From an uncultured Cytophagales bacterium (lineage in GTDB: Bacteria; Bacteroidota; Bacteroidia; Cytophagales; Thermoflexibacteraceae), in assembly GCA_938039675.1 (NCBI GenBank), contig CALHUI010000014.1, positions 1-64,000 of the forward strand: a stretch of 64,000 nt of DNA, written 5' to 3'. Below are positions 27,927 through 47,548 of the stretch, one piece after another. A program made the position numbers and the translations under genes. The notes under the pieces are model-generated. The model worked only from the letters and a program-made list of their open reading frames with translations. It was not told the origin of the DNA and ran no database searches. Each line of letters starts with the position of its first letter. The stretch's first letter is position 1.

Positions 27927-28421
27927 TTAATCATCGTGTTCTTTTTCGGAAGGACTGCCGTTGTTTTCAAGTGCATTGCTGGCATTGCGGATTTCGGTAT
28001 GCCTGATTTCACCGCCGGTAGTACCTGTTTGCTTGGCAAAAAACAGCACAACAACGGCAAAAATTAGCACAACAACGGCTGCAGCAGTGGCATAAGGTTT
28101 TTGCTTCCAACTCGCCCAAAGGCTTGCCAAAGATAACCCACCTAAGATATAAGACAAAATTGCAAACAATTCTGCTGCCTCTTCATGCCTATGAATAAAA
28201 TTTTCAGATATGCCGCCGATTTTTTCCACTACTTCTTCTGCTCCTTCGCCACTTGCCATAGCTACTCCCGCACTTATTGCACCAATGATAAAAAACAAAT
28301 AGGCTGTCCGCTTGACAGCCTCCGATTGTGTAAAAAATCCCACCAAAAGGGCAATAATACCTGCCATCGGGAAAATAATGGGCAGGTGATTGACCACCAA
28401 ATGAAAATGTGCATTGTTCAT
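27927..28421 (-). CDS. DUF2231-like four-helix membrane protein
   Basis: A 164-residue membrane protein with four likely transmembrane helices. Conserved-looking His residues sit at the start of the first helix (FHLVVNHLPI), in the loop before the third (HRHEEAAELFA) and after the fourth (GTTGGEIRHTE), the pattern of DUF2231-type proteins, for which haem or metal binding has been suggested. The C-terminal tail is hydrophilic. It begins 41 bp after dabB on the same strand and is the last gene of the apparent dabA-dabB operon, so it may serve the inorganic-carbon system or simply share its transcript. Confidence 0.75.
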   Translation of the reverse strand: MNNAHFHLVVNHLPIIFPMAGIIALLVGFFTQSEAVKRTAYLFFIIGAISAGVAMASGEGAEEVVEKIGGISENFIHRHEEAAELFAILSYILGGLSLASLWASWKQKPYATAAAVVVLIFAVVVLFFAKQTGTTGGEIRHTEIRNASNALENNGSPSEKEHDD

Positions 28422-28462: not shown

Positions 28463-30340
28463 TCAGGCGCTCCTAAGCGGTGTGGCATGGTAACGCTTCG
28501 CATGTATGCCCATAAACAGGCGCGCATACAACCGCAGCAGCGCTACGCAACCTACTACAAAACCAAGTGCAATAAAAAACGCGAGAAAATACTGGTCTTC
28601 ATGTACATGGCTAAGCAACAAGTCCTCGCCGATGAATGTGAGCGTAATCGGGAAGCCCATCATACCCAGCGTAGCAAGGAAAAACACGAAACCGAGCGTT
28701 TTGTATTCATACACATGCCCGTAGTAGTCCTCCAAATCAAAATAATCCGGTTCTTGCCATTTCAGTATTTGCAAACAAACCAGCCCAATCAGCCCCGATA
28801 AAACCACTCCGCTGAGGTAAAATGCAGTGTGCATAATATCAAAAGCTTCGTTGAAAGAAACCGCCAGCGCTGTCCAAAAATGGTTAAGCACTACTAGCCC
28901 CCATGCCAGCCGCGGATATTTTCGCTCGGAGAACGCCTTAAAAACCATCAATAGCCCCACGAATGCAGCCAATGCCGGAATAGAAGAGCGCAACAAGTCG
29001 GGAATCCACTCGCGCTGCCAAAGGAACAACAACGCCAACAGGTAAGAAGGCACTACATACAGCAACACATTGCTCGGCGTGAGAAAATCTAACTGATACC
29101 CCAGCTTGCGAATGGGTTTGAACAACAGATTATTAATCAGTTTATCCAAATTCCACTCTTTCAGCGACAATAAGTATAAAGTATTTTGCAGTTTATGCGA
29201 AATACCTTTGTAAAAACGGAAACGATGCGGCACATAGTGATAAAACTGGTCGCGAATCAGGTAGCTGACTATTGAAGGCGACACCAGCAACTGATAGGTA
29301 CGCAAAAATGCATTCCCTGCAAAGTGAATCAGCACGAGGGTGTTCCAACCCAATGCCAACTCTATAAACATTAACCCGATTTGGGTAACGGAAGCATAGG
29401 CTATCTGCGTTTTAATATTGGACTGCACCCGTGCAACAAAGTAGCCAACCACTGCCGTTACAAGTCCTGTCATGCCAATAAGCAGGCGCACAAATGGTTG
29501 ATGTTCCCAAAAATGTTCCGTGCGCAACATGAGGTAAACGCCAAGATGCACCGAAAGCGACCCGTAGAAAATAGCACTGGAAGGTGTGGGGCCTTCCATT
29601 GCACGCGGCAACCACGAAGAGAACGGGAATTGTGCCGATTTGGCAGCTGCAGCCACCAGCAAAGTAACAGAGATAAAAACACCGATACCGCTGTGAGTCA
29701 GCAGGTGTTCGTGCACCAAATGGTAGTCGTTGAGCTTGAAGAAGGTGATGTTTTCATGCCACAAATGATGGCTTGCCCATGCTGCCAGCAAAATCCCCAA
29801 ATCCCCAATCCGATAAATGGAAAACACCTTCAACGCATTGCGCACGGGCAGATATCGTTCTCTGTAAAAAGAAATTAACAAGAACGATGAAATACCCAAC
29901 ATTTCCCAGCCAATAAACAGCGTTTCAAAATTTCCTGCCAGAATAGTCAAATTATACGCCGTAAAAAAGAATAAAACTGTATTAAAAAACCGCTTGTAGC
30001 CATCCTCCATATGCAAATAATAGCTACAATAGCGGACAATCAGCAACGAAATAAAACTACCTATCCACAAATAAAACGCCGTAATATGGTCAAAATAGAA
30101 GTCTATCAGGAAAGTATAGTCAGACGAATCATATATGGTGATTTCTTTAACATTAACATAGGGCGCACCCCTATACAGCCAGAGTCCAATAAAAAAGGTA
30201 ACGGTCAGCAAATGAAAAAGCACACCATAGTAAGAAATATTAGCCATTGTAAATTCTTTTCTCTCTGCAATGAACAGGCTGATGATGAATGTTGATAGTG
30301 GAATAAGTACAAAACTCAAAATAAAATAATTCGTCTCCAT
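28463..30340 (-). CDS. dabB: DabB-type proton-conducting membrane subunit (NuoL/MrpA-like)
   Basis: A 625-residue polytopic protein of the proton-translocating NADH-quinone oxidoreductase subunit 5 family. The Proton_antipo_M core includes ETLFIGWEMLGISSFLLISF and SAQFPFSSWLPRAMEGPTP. It lies 4 nt after the dabA stop, and no other complex I gene is present, so I assign it as DabB, which couples ion flow to DabA for uptake of inorganic carbon. The ATG at 30340 (METNYFILSF) is chosen because the ORF start at 30418 lies inside the dabA 3' end. About fourteen helices are expected. The NuoL-like call is sure; the DabB role follows from its partner. Confidence 0.88.
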   Translation of the reverse strand: METNYFILSFVLIPLSTFIISLFIAERKEFTMANISYYGVLFHLLTVTFFIGLWLYRGAPYVNVKEITIYDSSDYTFLIDFYFDHITAFYLWIGSFISLLIVRYCSYYLHMEDGYKRFFNTVLFFFTAYNLTILAGNFETLFIGWEMLGISSFLLISFYRERYLPVRNALKVFSIYRIGDLGILLAAWASHHLWHENITFFKLNDYHLVHEHLLTHSGIGVFISVTLLVAAAAKSAQFPFSSWLPRAMEGPTPSSAIFYGSLSVHLGVYLMLRTEHFWEHQPFVRLLIGMTGLVTAVVGYFVARVQSNIKTQIAYASVTQIGLMFIELALGWNTLVLIHFAGNAFLRTYQLLVSPSIVSYLIRDQFYHYVPHRFRFYKGISHKLQNTLYLLSLKEWNLDKLINNLLFKPIRKLGYQLDFLTPSNVLLYVVPSYLLALLFLWQREWIPDLLRSSIPALAAFVGLLMVFKAFSERKYPRLAWGLVVLNHFWTALAVSFNEAFDIMHTAFYLSGVVLSGLIGLVCLQILKWQEPDYFDLEDYYGHVYEYKTLGFVFFLATLGMMGFPITLTFIGEDLLLSHVHEDQYFLAFFIALGFVVGCVALLRLYARLFMGIHAKRYHATPLRSA

Positions 30341-30344
30341 CGGA

Positions 30345-32841
30345 TTACTGAATGAGATAAATAGGTAAATTATCGTTGATAGATTCAAATTCGGGCATAA
30401 GATTTTGCTTGAACTCAAGCCCTACCGTCTGCGGCTGATAAGGAATTAAATCCTCATCTTCAAAGCGATAAATCTGCTTGGTTTGCGGATGAATTACAGC
30501 CAAATGTACCCACTCGTTTGCAAACCACTCATAGGTTGGCGGATGTTGCCGAAGCACACGTATGACGATTTCCGGCTCTTGCTCTACAATCACCATCAAG
30601 CGCATCGGCTGATGAATGTTAATCATTTGTCGCGGCAGCCCTGTCCGCAAGTCGCCTTCCAAGCCATTGGAAACACCAATCAGCCCGACAACGTTATGAG
30701 GCAGTTTACTGCCTGCGCCTAGCCGTTCGTTATCAACCCGCGAAAAATAGTATTCCAGATTGATGCCGCCACAAACAGGTACCACCGCTTTCAACATATT
30801 CAACAAATATTTACCGTCTGGGTCAATTGAATAGTCATAAGAGTTTAAAAAGGCTCGCCTATCTAAAAAAAGGTGTTTATTGGAAGCCCTTCTACCTACA
30901 ATACAAAGGGCATTGGTTGCATGATTCCACTCGGGGCGGGGCTCAAACAAAGACATTGCCCGACGCTGCACCTGCTTGTGTACTTTTTCGGCATCATTGT
31001 CCGAGTTAATTAGCAGAAAACGACGCGAACGTTCTTTGGCGTTCAAATCCAATGCTTTGTTAATCAGTTCTTTATACTCCTGATGTAAAGTTTGCAAATT
31101 AGCCGGCAGGGCTGATTCATCAAAAAAGTCGGCAAGGTCGCGAGTAGTATCGTGCAATCCGCCGACAAAACGGGTGGTATTGGGTATATGAATACCGCGC
31201 GCTGCCAACAGAGCACGAACCTCGGGCATGTTCGCCATGGCAGCGGCTGCCCGTGCATTAACCGAACCCGCCCTGCCGCTACATGCACCGCAGTCATAAC
31301 CTGCATAATGTGTATTGTTTACACTGCTCGCACCGTGCCCAATAATGTATATCAAAGGTGCAAAGTCGGTTATCAGACCGATGCTGCGCAGCAAGCCCTC
31401 TATGCGGTCGGCCATTTCGGGAATGGTAAACCCAAATTGATAGCCTTCGGTATTTGGTACATCATTGGCACAGTAGATGTCCAGCACCCCGTTCCTGTCC
31501 ATATGATTAAAAGAAGAAACCATGACAGAGGTTTCCATTGGTCTGAATATGCTGAGTGCCAACTTACCTGCTGCCAACAAGCCTACCGTTGCAGAGGCAA
31601 TTAGCCCGCTAAGAAAACCGTGAGACCGCTTGCTCAAATGAGTATCTTTGCGATGGCGCTTTTGCGCCTCTCGCTCGCGAATGATGTGGCGCGGGTGCAT
31701 AGGAGCAGGACAAGACTTGGTGATAAATGCACCGTGTGCAGGCTGAAAGAAAAATTCAACATTAAAAAAAACCGGCAGTACCAAAAGTTTGGCAACGCGG
31801 AGCGAGATTTTCTATGTGTCGGCGAATGGAACACTCGCGGTCATCAATGCAAAAAATTGCCTGAAAACTACTCTCCGATGCATGATGCAAGCCGTTCTCT
31901 GCCGTAAGTTGCATTCCGCGAAGCACTTGGTCGTAATAGGTCCACTCCATCGCTTCCTGCCAAAGTGCACATACTTCAAAGTATTCATTGGGCACGGGCG
32001 GGGCAAATAAATCAACTTGCGGCAACTGTATCGCCTCGGCAAACGGTTTCCAATTGCTGCCCAATTTGTATTCCAATACATCTATTTCCAGCAACAGTTC
32101 AAAAGCAATCAACTCGCGCAGAGTAATTTTTCGCTTATCAAACAATGTATCGGGGTGTTCCTCCAATACAACTACCATTCCCGACCACCCCGGATGTGCA
32201 AACTGTTGGTCAAACAGATATTGTGCATAGTAGCGCTCGTCGCCCACAACCAATTGCAGCAAATCGGGCAGTGCACATTCGGTAGAGAGTAACAACCTGC
32301 GCGCCGCAGGCTTGCGGAAAATACTGCTGAAATTATTGCGTTCCAGTTGGCGAAGCGATGCCAGAAAACCATGGCGGCTCATCGGAAACTTTTGCAGGGC
32401 TATTCCTTGGTCAAGGTAAGCTGCCAACATCCGAAAAAGCAGCGGATTAACTTCTTTATCTAAATTGATGTTATACAAATCTTTCCAGTAGCGGCGCAAC
32501 TTGCCGATGCGCTGATGGAAAGTAATATCTAAGGGCTGCCGGTGCATTTTGTCTGACCACTGCACCAGTTGGTTGACTCCCTTGCGGTCAATAATGACAC
32601 GCTGTATGATTGTATCGCTGATTTTACCGGCTTTGTACAAAGCACGGTATTCTTCTAATGGCAAATAGGTCTGATAACCAAATATTTCTGATGCCAAATG
32701 CAATGCTTGATGAAACTTTTGCTGCTGAAAAGCATGAAGCGTATTATGGTGTATAAAATCTTTTAAGGGAGCCTGTGAGGGTAAAAAGTGCTTTAACTCG
32801 TGTAATATGTGCGCTTCATTGAAAGAATGAGAAGATTTCAT
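30345..32841 (-). pseudogene. dabA: dabA (DUF2309/YbcC) inorganic-carbon uptake subunit, split by one frameshift
   Basis: DabA is a beta-carbonic-anhydrase-like subunit that with DabB energises CO2/bicarbonate accumulation. The first ORF (32841-31762) starts MKSSHSFNEAHIL and carries the zinc/catalytic block FCIDDREC (C331, D333). It reads AGFF then meets TAA inside a run of eight T (plus-strand A at 31764-31771). The second frame (to 30345) continues exactly as NVEFFFQPAHGAF and carries HGASS...DCGAC, the other zinc-site region. With seven T the two parts join as one protein of about 831 residues, the family's usual length. Both halves look under selection, so the lesion is recent, a homopolymer error, or a slippage-rescued/phase-variable site. 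The second ORF also has a TTG near the junction, but a free C-terminal half is unlikely to work. Confidence 0.85.
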
Positions 32842-33416: not shown

Positions 33417-33857
33417 CTACGCAATATCAATACTTTTGCCCTCCGGCATAGTTTCTTTGTTTATTTTAGGAAGAGTCAGGTGCAATATGCCGTTGTTGTA
33501 TTCAGCTTTGATGTTGTCTTGGTCTACGTTTTCAGGCAAGACAAATGACCTGCGAAAAGAAGAATAATTAAACTCACGGCGGGTAAAGTTCTTTTCTTCC
33601 TCTTTCTTTTCTGTTTTCTTTTCTGCGGAAATAAGCAGTACGTTATCTCTTACATTGATTTTAAAGTCACTCTTTTCCATACCCGGAGAAGCTACTTCCA
33701 TGCGAAAACTAGTTTCATCCTCATGCACGTTTACCGCGGGCATCGTACTTGGCATGTTCCACATTTGCAGCGCATCACTGAAAAATTTTTCAATGTTAAA
33801 AAGGTCAGAAACAGTTGAGGGAAAAGTCCTCATCAAAGATTTTGAGAGCATTGACAT
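33417..33857 (-). CDS. Hsp20/alpha-crystallin family small heat-shock protein (second copy)
   Basis: A 146-residue small heat-shock protein. The crystallin core spans about residues 38-135 (FRMEVASPGMEKSDFKINV, then AEYNNGILHLTLPKI); the N-terminal arm has FNIEKFFSDALQMWN, and a Lys/Glu-rich insertion (TEKKEEEKN) lies in the loop. It differs clearly from the copy at 13391, so it is an older paralogue and not a recent duplicate. Unlike most genes here it has a full Shine-Dalgarno GGAGGA at 33870-33865. Upstream is a -7-like TACATTTG (33919-33912) and three TTTGTCA words, one of which overlaps it. Confidence 0.93.
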   Translation of the reverse strand: MSMLSKSLMRTFPSTVSDLFNIEKFFSDALQMWNMPSTMPAVNVHEDETSFRMEVASPGMEKSDFKINVRDNVLLISAEKKTEKKEEEKNFTRREFNYSSFRRSFVLPENVDQDNIKAEYNNGILHLTLPKINKETMPEGKSIDIA

Positions 33858-44535: not shown

Positions 44536-46788
44536 ATGCCTGTTTCCCACACTCGTTTACTCAAACAAAAGCACGGTTTCGGTTCTCTTCCGGTTTTCTT
44601 TTTGTCGCTCTGTACGTTGCAGGGCGCACTGATGATTCTTTGGCTCGGCTATGCGGTCGGCAACTTGGGCATGTTAGCAGCCATTGGCATGGTGACGGTG
44701 GCTCATGCCATTACCATTCCTACGGCAATGGCATTTTCGGAAATTGCCACTAACCAAAAGGTAGAAGGCGGCGGCGAATATTTTATTATTTCGCGCTCCT
44801 TTGGCATTACGATAGGTGTACCTATTGGCGTTACACTTTACATGGCACAAACTATTTTGACAGCCTTGTATCTGATTGCTTTCTCGCGCGCCTTTCAGCC
44901 CTTTTTTGACTACCTGCTGGCTTCTCCGCTAAGCATCTACGTGTACGATTACCGCGTGGCAAGCATACCCGCTTTCTTGTTGCTAACCTTGCTGTTGCTG
45001 CGCTTTGGCTCGGAAATACTGATTAAGTTGCTCTATCTGGCAGTACCACTAATGGTTTTTGGCTACGGGCTTTTTCTGGGCAGTCCTCCCACACATCGCG
45101 AAGAGTTGCTGCTCAGCGATTTGACCCAACACATAGAGCAGCCGCTGAGTTTCTTTGGTGTGCTTGCGCTTAGCTTTCCCATGTTTGGCGGCATGACTGC
45201 AGGGCTTAGCTTTTCCAAAAAACTCCGCGAACCGCGTCATTCGCTGCCGCGCGGTATCATTGGTGCTGTCGTTGCAGGTTTTTTTGCCTACATCATTTTT
45301 ATTTTCAAACTGCACATGATTGCCTCACCGGACGAATTGGTGCAAAATCCACTGGTAATGGCAGACAATACGCCTTTCGGCGTTGAAATCATCATCGTGC
45401 TGGGTGTAGCAAGTCTGCTGTCGGCAGCAGGCTCTTTTCTGATGGCAAGCCGAACCTTGCAGGCACTCGCAGCCGACCGCGTATTGCCCAATCTGGTATG
45501 GGACAGATGGCTTTCGCGTATGAATCGCGACGATGTGAACAACCCGCTGCCTATTCATGCCATTCAAGCAACGGCCGTGCTGGTGCTGATAGCACTGATT
45601 TACGACAACATGCCCTACATGCTGGAAGCAGTGTCGGTATTGCTTTGCCTGACATTCGGCTCTATCTGCCTCATTTCATTTCTGGAACATTTTGCAGCCG
45701 ACCCTGCCTATCGGCCTGTATTCCGCACGCGCTGGTATATTTCGCTGACAGGTGCGATGTCCTGCATAATTGTTATGATTAACATCAATCTCCGATTTTC
45801 GCTGCTGGTGCTGGTGCTTATGATTTTCACCTACCTGCTGGTAAGCCGCTATCAACATCGCAAACAGGGCTTATCGGCTATTTTTCAGGGGGTTATCTTC
45901 CAATTGAGTCGCACACTGCAAATTTTTCTGCAAAAAGTACGCAAAGAGCCCGAAGCAGAACACTGGCGACCCTCCATTATCTGCATTTCAACCCACTCTT
46001 TTGACCGCGTATCGGGCTTCCAATTTCTGCGCTGGATTTCCTACAAATACGGGTTCGGCACTTATATCCACCTGATTGAAGGGTATTTGTCCAAAGAAAC
46101 GCACCGACAATCTAAGGAATGCTACAATCAGCTGATTCAAATTTCGGATGCTACGCACAGCAATGTGTACATAGATACGCTGGTGAGTCCTTCGGCAACT
46201 TCGGCCATTTCGCAAGTCATTCAGTTGCCGGGTATTTCGGGCAAAGAAAATAACGTTATCATGTTTGAGTTTTCCAAAGCTAACCCCGAGGGTTTGGAAA
46301 ACATCGCAGCCAACTTCCAATTGGTGCGTGCCACCGACTTTGATGCTATCGTGCTGGGCAGTTCCGACCGCAACTTTGGCTATCACAGCGAAATAGACAT
46401 TTGGATTACTTCTAACGACTATGAAAACGCCACACTGATGATTTTGCTTGGCTATATTATTCTGGGACATCCTGAGTGGAGCAATGCCAGCATCAAGATT
46501 TTTGCCATTTACCCCGAAGATGAGTTGGTAGAACAAAAACAAAACCTGATGGAGTTAATTAACTCCGGAAGGCTGCCCATTTCCCCTTCTAACATAGAGT
46601 TGATACCGCAAAAAGAAAACGTGGATACCAAAACCATTATTAACCAAAAGTCCAAACGCGCCGACCTGACTATTATCGGTGTACGCTCCGAAGCGGTTAA
46701 ACACAGCGGAGGGGCTGTTTTCATGGGTTATGATGGCATCGGCGACGTGCTTTTTGTGAATACCAAAACTATGAAATCGTTGCGCTGA
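44536..46788 (+). CDS. APC-superfamily transporter, SLC12 (cation-chloride cotransporter)-like
   Basis: A 750-residue membrane protein with 12 helices (about 15-440) and a large soluble C-terminal domain (about 470-750). GSLPVFFLSLCTLQGALMILW and the GGEYFIISRSFG block match the SLC12-type amino acid permease branch. The long C-terminal part (ICISTHSFDRVSGFQFLRW, IGVRSEAVK) is the cytoplasmic domain that regulates such carriers. Transport of K+/Na+/Cl- or amino acids is possible; the ion cannot be read. It lies between a DUF58 gene and an SGNH hydrolase gene whose ATG overlaps its stop (TGATG). Confidence 0.87.
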   Translation: MPVSHTRLLKQKHGFGSLPVFFLSLCTLQGALMILWLGYAVGNLGMLAAIGMVTVAHAITIPTAMAFSEIATNQKVEGGGEYFIISRSFGITIGVPIGVTLYMAQTILTALYLIAFSRAFQPFFDYLLASPLSIYVYDYRVASIPAFLLLTLLLLRFGSEILIKLLYLAVPLMVFGYGLFLGSPPTHREELLLSDLTQHIEQPLSFFGVLALSFPMFGGMTAGLSFSKKLREPRHSLPRGIIGAVVAGFFAYIIFIFKLHMIASPDELVQNPLVMADNTPFGVEIIIVLGVASLLSAAGSFLMASRTLQALAADRVLPNLVWDRWLSRMNRDDVNNPLPIHAIQATAVLVLIALIYDNMPYMLEAVSVLLCLTFGSICLISFLEHFAADPAYRPVFRTRWYISLTGAMSCIIVMININLRFSLLVLVLMIFTYLLVSRYQHRKQGLSAIFQGVIFQLSRTLQIFLQKVRKEPEAEHWRPSIICISTHSFDRVSGFQFLRWISYKYGFGTYIHLIEGYLSKETHRQSKECYNQLIQISDATHSNVYIDTLVSPSATSAISQVIQLPGISGKENNVIMFEFSKANPEGLENIAANFQLVRATDFDAIVLGSSDRNFGYHSEIDIWITSNDYENATLMILLGYIILGHPEWSNASIKIFAIYPEDELVEQKQNLMELINSGRLPISPSNIELIPQKENVDTKTIINQKSKRADLTIIGVRSEAVKHSGGAVFMGYDGIGDVLFVNTKTMKSLR

Positions 46789-47548
46789 TGCTCTTGCCGA
46801 GTCCTTTGGTTCTCAATTGGTGCTCTATGGCTTTGCTGGGCAAAGTAGTCGCTCATTTTCCCAAACTGATGCAGCAAGGCAACGCCATTTGTGCCAATAT
46901 CGTGCGCCTGCCCTTGCCGCAAGACAAGCCGCAGGGCAGTTTCGGCAACGGCAAACATCCTTTCAAACTACTGGCCTTTGGCGAATCTACAGTGGTAGGC
47001 ATGGGCATTGGGTCTTATGCCAATACACCAGGAGGAGTTTTTTCACAATCTTTTGCTACACAAAACCCTGATTTACAGGTAGATTGGCTATCTATCGGAA
47101 AAAACGGCCTGAGAGTGAGCGAGGCAATCTCTTACTTTCGGGAGCAGGTTCTCCCTACCCGATTTGACTTGTTGCTAATCGGCTTGGGCGCAAACGATAT
47201 TTTCAAGTTTACACCTGTTCGGCAATGGCGCAAACAGGTGCGTGCCTTGCTGCAAACATCCTCAGCATACAGCACGCGTATTATCCGGGCAATGCTGCCC
47301 TGGTCGGTCGTTTCCCGATTTTCAATACGCCGGACAGGCAACTGTTGAGGCAACTATTTGACCATCAGCGGCTTTTGCTTGAAATTGCCATCCATCGGGA
47401 AGAACGATGCTCGCCCGTTCCTTTCATCTATCGCAAAGTGGCTTTTGAGCTTTCGGAAGATATGTTCGTATCCGACGGTGTGCATCTGTCTGCAAAAGGT
47501 AGTCGGGTATGGGTCAATGCCATGATGCAATACATGGCTACGCTTTAA
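46788..47548 (+). pseudogene. SGNH/GDSL-type hydrolase, split by one frameshift
   Basis: The first frame (46788-47348) holds a signal-anchor-like start, the nucleophile block FGESTVVGMG (Ser in GES/GDS position) and GLGANDIF (block III Asn). The second frame (ending at 47548) continues with GRFPIFNTPDRQ and the terminal SDGVHLSAKG, where Asp and His complete the SGNH triad. The frames join near 47300 if one base is restored in the CCCTGG run. Joined, the protein has about 253 residues, normal for Bacteroidota SGNH hydrolases of this type. It is either a recent pseudogene or a sequencing error. It overlaps the 3' end of the convergent DUF4350 gene by 11 bp. Confidence 0.75.

Follow-up and report, generated by a model that had tools for sequence, protein, structure and literature searches.

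In the genome under study (G000; 3.28 Mb in 34 contigs, completeness 100%), the gene of DabA, the bicarbonate-making half of the bacterial carbon pump (DAB complex), is read as two open reading frames which meet at a run of eight T. The question raised by this locus is whether the interruption is a switch, a site of programmed recoding, the mark of a gene being lost or a single wrong base in the consensus.

The interrupted dabA gene

In the window, i.e. the whole 64-kb stretch of DNA analysed, the reading of ORFs places dabA on the minus strand (32841..30345), split by a T8 tract at 31764-31771, and the two dabA ORFs overlap exactly over 31762-31784 (Table 1). At the break, GGT TTT TTT is followed by TAA, and the remaining protein lies in the frame that is reached with one T fewer. 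The original prediction of a gene interrupted by one extra T, whose removal restores a protein of about 831 residues, was borne out in its coordinates, its TAA and its T8 tract: without one T, 359 and 472 residues join into 831 aa, the length of the intact DabA of a congener, G006. Re-initiation at TAATG was considered and rejected, as this ATG belongs to a third frame and not to the downstream dabA frame.

Table 1. Features of the dabA locus of G000, with positions in the window
Feature	Position	Strand	Description	Profile match or selection
dabA 5' part	31762..32841	-	ORF of 359 aa, stops at TAA within the T run; C331, D333, R335	PF10070, E 9.1e-70, profile 2-321
dabA 3' part	30345..31784	-	ORF of 479 aa, TTG start at 31784; homologous frame from 31763 on; H502, C517	PF10070, E 2.6e-145, profile 320-747
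T8 run	31764..31771	-	A8 on the + strand; T7 at the same place in congener G006	
Premature in-frame TAA	31762..31764	-	UUU before the stop, mRNA reads UUU_UAA (+1 'shifty stop')	
dabB, NuoL/Mrp-type partner	28463..30418	-	Intact ORF of 651 aa, overlaps the end of dabA	PF00361 and PF00662; dN/dS 0.10 vs G006
DUF2231 membrane protein	27927..28421	-	Downstream of dabB	PF09990

Both halves are, as predicted, of the DUF2309/DabA type and carry zinc-site residues, and combined they cover the PF10070 profile from 2 to 747. An alignment of 114 DabA sequences shows no variation at C331, D333, H502 or C517, and C331, D333, R335, H502 and C517 align with C351, D353, R355, H524 and C539 of the solved DabA2 of Halothiobacillus, in which alanine mutants of zinc-site residues grew more poorly at low CO2 (PMC13144422). 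The G000 locus shares with DabA2 (PF10070; PDB 9rd0) the family, the C/D/R...H/C zinc-site residues and an adjoining dabB, whereas its frame is broken after the GFF motif (around residues 377-379 of DabA2), between the two clusters of ligands. Hence, G000 does not encode a single continuous polypeptide with all zinc ligands, the frame being split by the TAA, and neither fragment alone is predicted from the alignment to hold a complete catalytic site, as the break separates C331/D333/R335 from H502/C517. The dabB gene beside it is intact, as had also been claimed, and the DUF2231 gene probably belongs to one transcription unit with it. Upstream of dabA, at 33417-33857 on the minus strand, a putative small heat-shock-like protein (Hsp20-like by sequence) is encoded, the order of neighbours being the same in G006.

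The break site in related genomes

The comparison set contained one genome per species. Among the genomes compared, G006 is the one congener with dabA; it belongs to the same genus, is the closest relative in the comparison, is syntenic with G000 and shares with it ∼93% nucleotide identity, while dabA is absent from two further congeners, G007 and G008. At the exact break point G006 reads GGT TTT TTT AAT, that is, T7 within an uninterrupted frame of 831 aa, which is one half of the refuting observation named in advance, the other half being a monomorphic T7 run. Other relatives in the family, e.g. those represented by L002 and L005, also have T7 at the site. A class-wide survey, which detected DabA in 78 of 395 genomes, revealed no other genome split at the G000 site, and the 112 further DabA frames that were aligned all run through the T tract unbroken; these were gathered as open frames, so that their count alone cannot exclude breaks, but the class survey can. 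In the aligned frames the T run at the GFF motif is 2-8 long, with 21 cases of T7 and two of T8 read in frame as Phe-Phe-Ser; T7 or an in-frame T8 is thus common (23/112), because GGT-TTT-TTT codes for Gly-Phe-Phe, and to judge by this range of lengths the T run is a by-product of that coding.

A second split DabA (L005/L008) was found in a same-family draft genome, G001, where the frame breaks at another position (L005 of G001:C355, about 1490-1510, near L005:1500) and the T7 at the G000 site is in frame, so recurrent breakage at the G000 site in other lineages was rejected.

Selection on the interrupted gene

Between G000 and G006, dN/dS is 0.096 before the break, 0.086 after it and 0.099 in dabB, with values of 0.05-0.16 in six further neighbour genes; by this comparison of sequences, purifying selection acts on both halves of dabA just as on dabB. 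When residue changes were polarised on other DabA proteins, 25 fell on the G000 branch and 23 on that of G006, and in the second half of the protein the numbers were 17 and 10, respectively (p 0.25); relaxed selection on the G000 dabA branch was not found. Since ∼300 changes would be expected had dabA been neutral along the whole G000 branch, compared with the 25 seen, the non-functional period amounts to at most ∼4.5% of the branch (a rough Poisson bound). No further lesion is present in the 2.5 kb of dabA. As a caution, a single base settles whether an annotation pipeline labels this carbon-pump gene a pseudogene, though, to judge by selection, the gene was in use right up to the tip.

Origin of the extra base

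The explanation we favour, with a confidence only a little better than even, is a very recent insertion of one T in the sequenced strain, which breaks an otherwise selected dabA. T7 would have become T8 by replication slippage, truncating DabA at residue 359 and leaving a strain that still encodes dabB but has little or no DabA activity. The recency of the event explains the purifying selection downstream of the break.

If real, the T8 allele is probably leaky, because two routes would lead from it, in a minority of products, to the unaltered protein of 831 aa. RNA polymerase may drop one U on the T8 tract, or the ribosome may slip by +1 at UUU_UAA, where tRNA-Phe would re-pair identically and the next codon, AAU, would supply Asn. 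Such leakage would be an accident of the sequence rather than evolved regulation.

Base rates of homopolymer runs were drawn from a 425 kb sample of G000. In this sample, 172 A/T runs of 7-9, including 21 of 8-9, lie inside uninterrupted ORFs, and the G000 consensus is therefore sound elsewhere. In the window T8 runs are depleted (7 on both strands vs 18 expected by shuffling). Runs of eight are no rarity, and it is the broken frame, not the length of the run, that is unusual in dabA. Of the 43 runs of at least 7 in the ∼103 kb that could be aligned with G006, 39 are equally long in both genomes; no length difference other than that of dabA falls inside a gene, the three others being all intergenic or at ORF edges. 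Slippage changes are, because of these three, real in the G000/G006 lineage.

A consensus error, by which the true run would be T7, dabA intact and one T added in sequencing or assembly, is a possibility of clearly lower probability, though one to be taken seriously. It would agree with the undiminished selection on both halves, with the T7 of G006, with a break seen in a single genome only and with the homopolymer context, T8 being the kind of tract at which sequencing methods with homopolymer problems err most; a second lone frameshift, in a GDSL lipase gene, is present in the same window. However, G000 is 100% complete, and homopolymer-prone data should have left more of its genes broken; in the sampled 425 kb, no second gene interrupted at an A/T run of 7-9 came to light. 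Four runs of 8 agree between G000 and G006, and the lipase frameshift lies outside a homopolymer with substitutions beside it. Three other places in the 425 kb where neighbouring ORFs meet at a run were compared with Pfam, and at none of them did one family extend over both ORFs. In a reciprocal test of ∼70 gene pairs, two true splits (dabA and the GDSL lipase) were found in G000 and none in G006, a result to be expected from a handful of indel errors as well as from a handful of recent mutations; a third apparent split (L143) proved to be a spurious antisense ORF. We place a real mutation ahead of a consensus error.

The GDSL/SGNH lipase gene itself (46788-47548, plus strand) is split by the loss of one base near 47300, and the corresponding ORF of G006 is intact (253 aa).

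Phase variation as a rival reading

Slipped-strand switching of DabA in the population between T7 (on) and T8 (off), one of the options originally raised, seems quite improbable. The states of the two species do differ by exactly one T. However, the run follows from the choice of GGT-TTT-TTT codons, GGTTTTTTT encoding 5 of 23 GFF motifs in the sampled G000 genes (11% expected from codon usage), and in the 112 aligned frames no lengthened or out-of-frame run occurs: the run stays at 2-8 and in frame, unlike the long or hypervariable runs of contingency loci. A defect of mismatch repair was ruled out, as mutS and mutL are intact in G000, and most comparable runs (39/43) are unchanged between the species. 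The proposal of a phase-variable dabA accordingly found no support. A G9 run in an uninterrupted ORF of 404 codons (L140 13683, G000:C13), the longest G/C run in the sampled 425 kb, is a more promising place than dabA to look for phase variation.

Programmed recoding as a rival reading

On T8, E. coli RNA polymerase gave ∼10% in-frame signal by deletion, and the T8 mutant mboIIM2 +T372 also yielded full-length product (PMC6260861). Baranov et al. (2005, PMC1088944) put the onset of selection against slippage, for many genomes, near nine A/T; they also describe 'pseudo pseudogenes' of the kind seen here and suggest that eight A can slip productively in some organisms. The 'shifty stop' is a known class of +1 shift (PMC5009743).

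Programmed recoding, in which slipped transcripts or a +1 'shifty stop' would yield complete DabA at a fixed level, is nevertheless very unlikely here. UUU_UAA would allow exact re-pairing and a correct next codon, the slippage measured for the E. coli enzyme makes the transcriptional route plausible, and the frame downstream of the break is under purifying selection, which recency explains. However, the interrupted arrangement is not conserved, as G006 and the class survey are in frame at this point, no Shine-Dalgarno-like stimulator precedes the site (upstream sequence ACUGCCGGU), and the RNA around or downstream of it is no more stably folded than shuffled sequences (z -0.24, 0.17, -0.83). 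As for a slippage-rescued gene, shortening the run by one (T8 to T7) restores the frame, but the interruption is not kept in relatives; as for an RF2-like +1 frameshift, a slippery codon is followed by a stop, but neither an upstream Shine-Dalgarno-like nor a downstream structural stimulator was found at the dabA site. Programmed slippage as a source of DabA was thus left without support. That the strain deliberately makes a low amount of full-length DabA from T8 slippage or the UUU_UAA shift, as a 'leaky' allele tuned by one base, is hardly to be expected either.

As in 'pseudo pseudogenes' (PMC1088944), a one-base insertion lengthens a homopolymer where slippage would restore the frame, but dabA has T8 and not the typical nine A/T, and it is a lone allele, described here at the level of DNA. 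As in mboIIM2 +T372, partly rescued in E. coli by one-base deletion in transcription, an inserted T gives T8; that gene was engineered (PMC6260861), whereas the dabA T8 is a natural Bacteroidota allele whose rescue is predicted. With prfB (RF2) the site shares a P-site codon able to re-pair one base on and a stop in the A site, but not a Shine-Dalgarno-like stimulator, autoregulatory logic or conservation. Rather than a special control device, the T8 of dabA most likely represents a common kind of frameshift, one base inserted at the tip of the tree (or else an error in the consensus), in a gene that is already known.

A long-standing pseudogene in decay, for which two one-base lesions in one window and the absence of dabA from two congeners might speak, is practically out of the question given the low and equal dN/dS of both halves, the lack of any further lesion in the 2.5 kb and of relaxation on the branch; of the original 'decaying or just lost', old decay was ruled out by dN/dS and the branch test, and recent loss, possibly leaky, is the part that stands.

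Physiological context

If the T8 is real, G000 and its T7 congener form a natural pair bearing on the need for DabA in air in organisms without alpha- or beta-carbonic anhydrases, and likewise on whether the RNA polymerase of Bacteroidota slips on T8 like the E. coli enzyme. Alpha- and beta-carbonic anhydrases were not found in G000 or its congeners, and each of these four genomes encodes a gamma-CA/YrdA-like protein, a homologue by sequence. Dependence on DAB as the sole carbonic anhydrase was rejected, and no argument for its essentiality can be made, because this homologue is present in all four genomes and G007 and G008 have no dabA; for the same reasons, the loss of DAB activity appears tolerable. 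In G000 the putative gamma-CA/YrdA-like protein (L151 / L213; G000:C6:142165-142680) is the only homologue of a carbonic-anhydrase class besides DabA among the alpha, beta and gamma classes sought.
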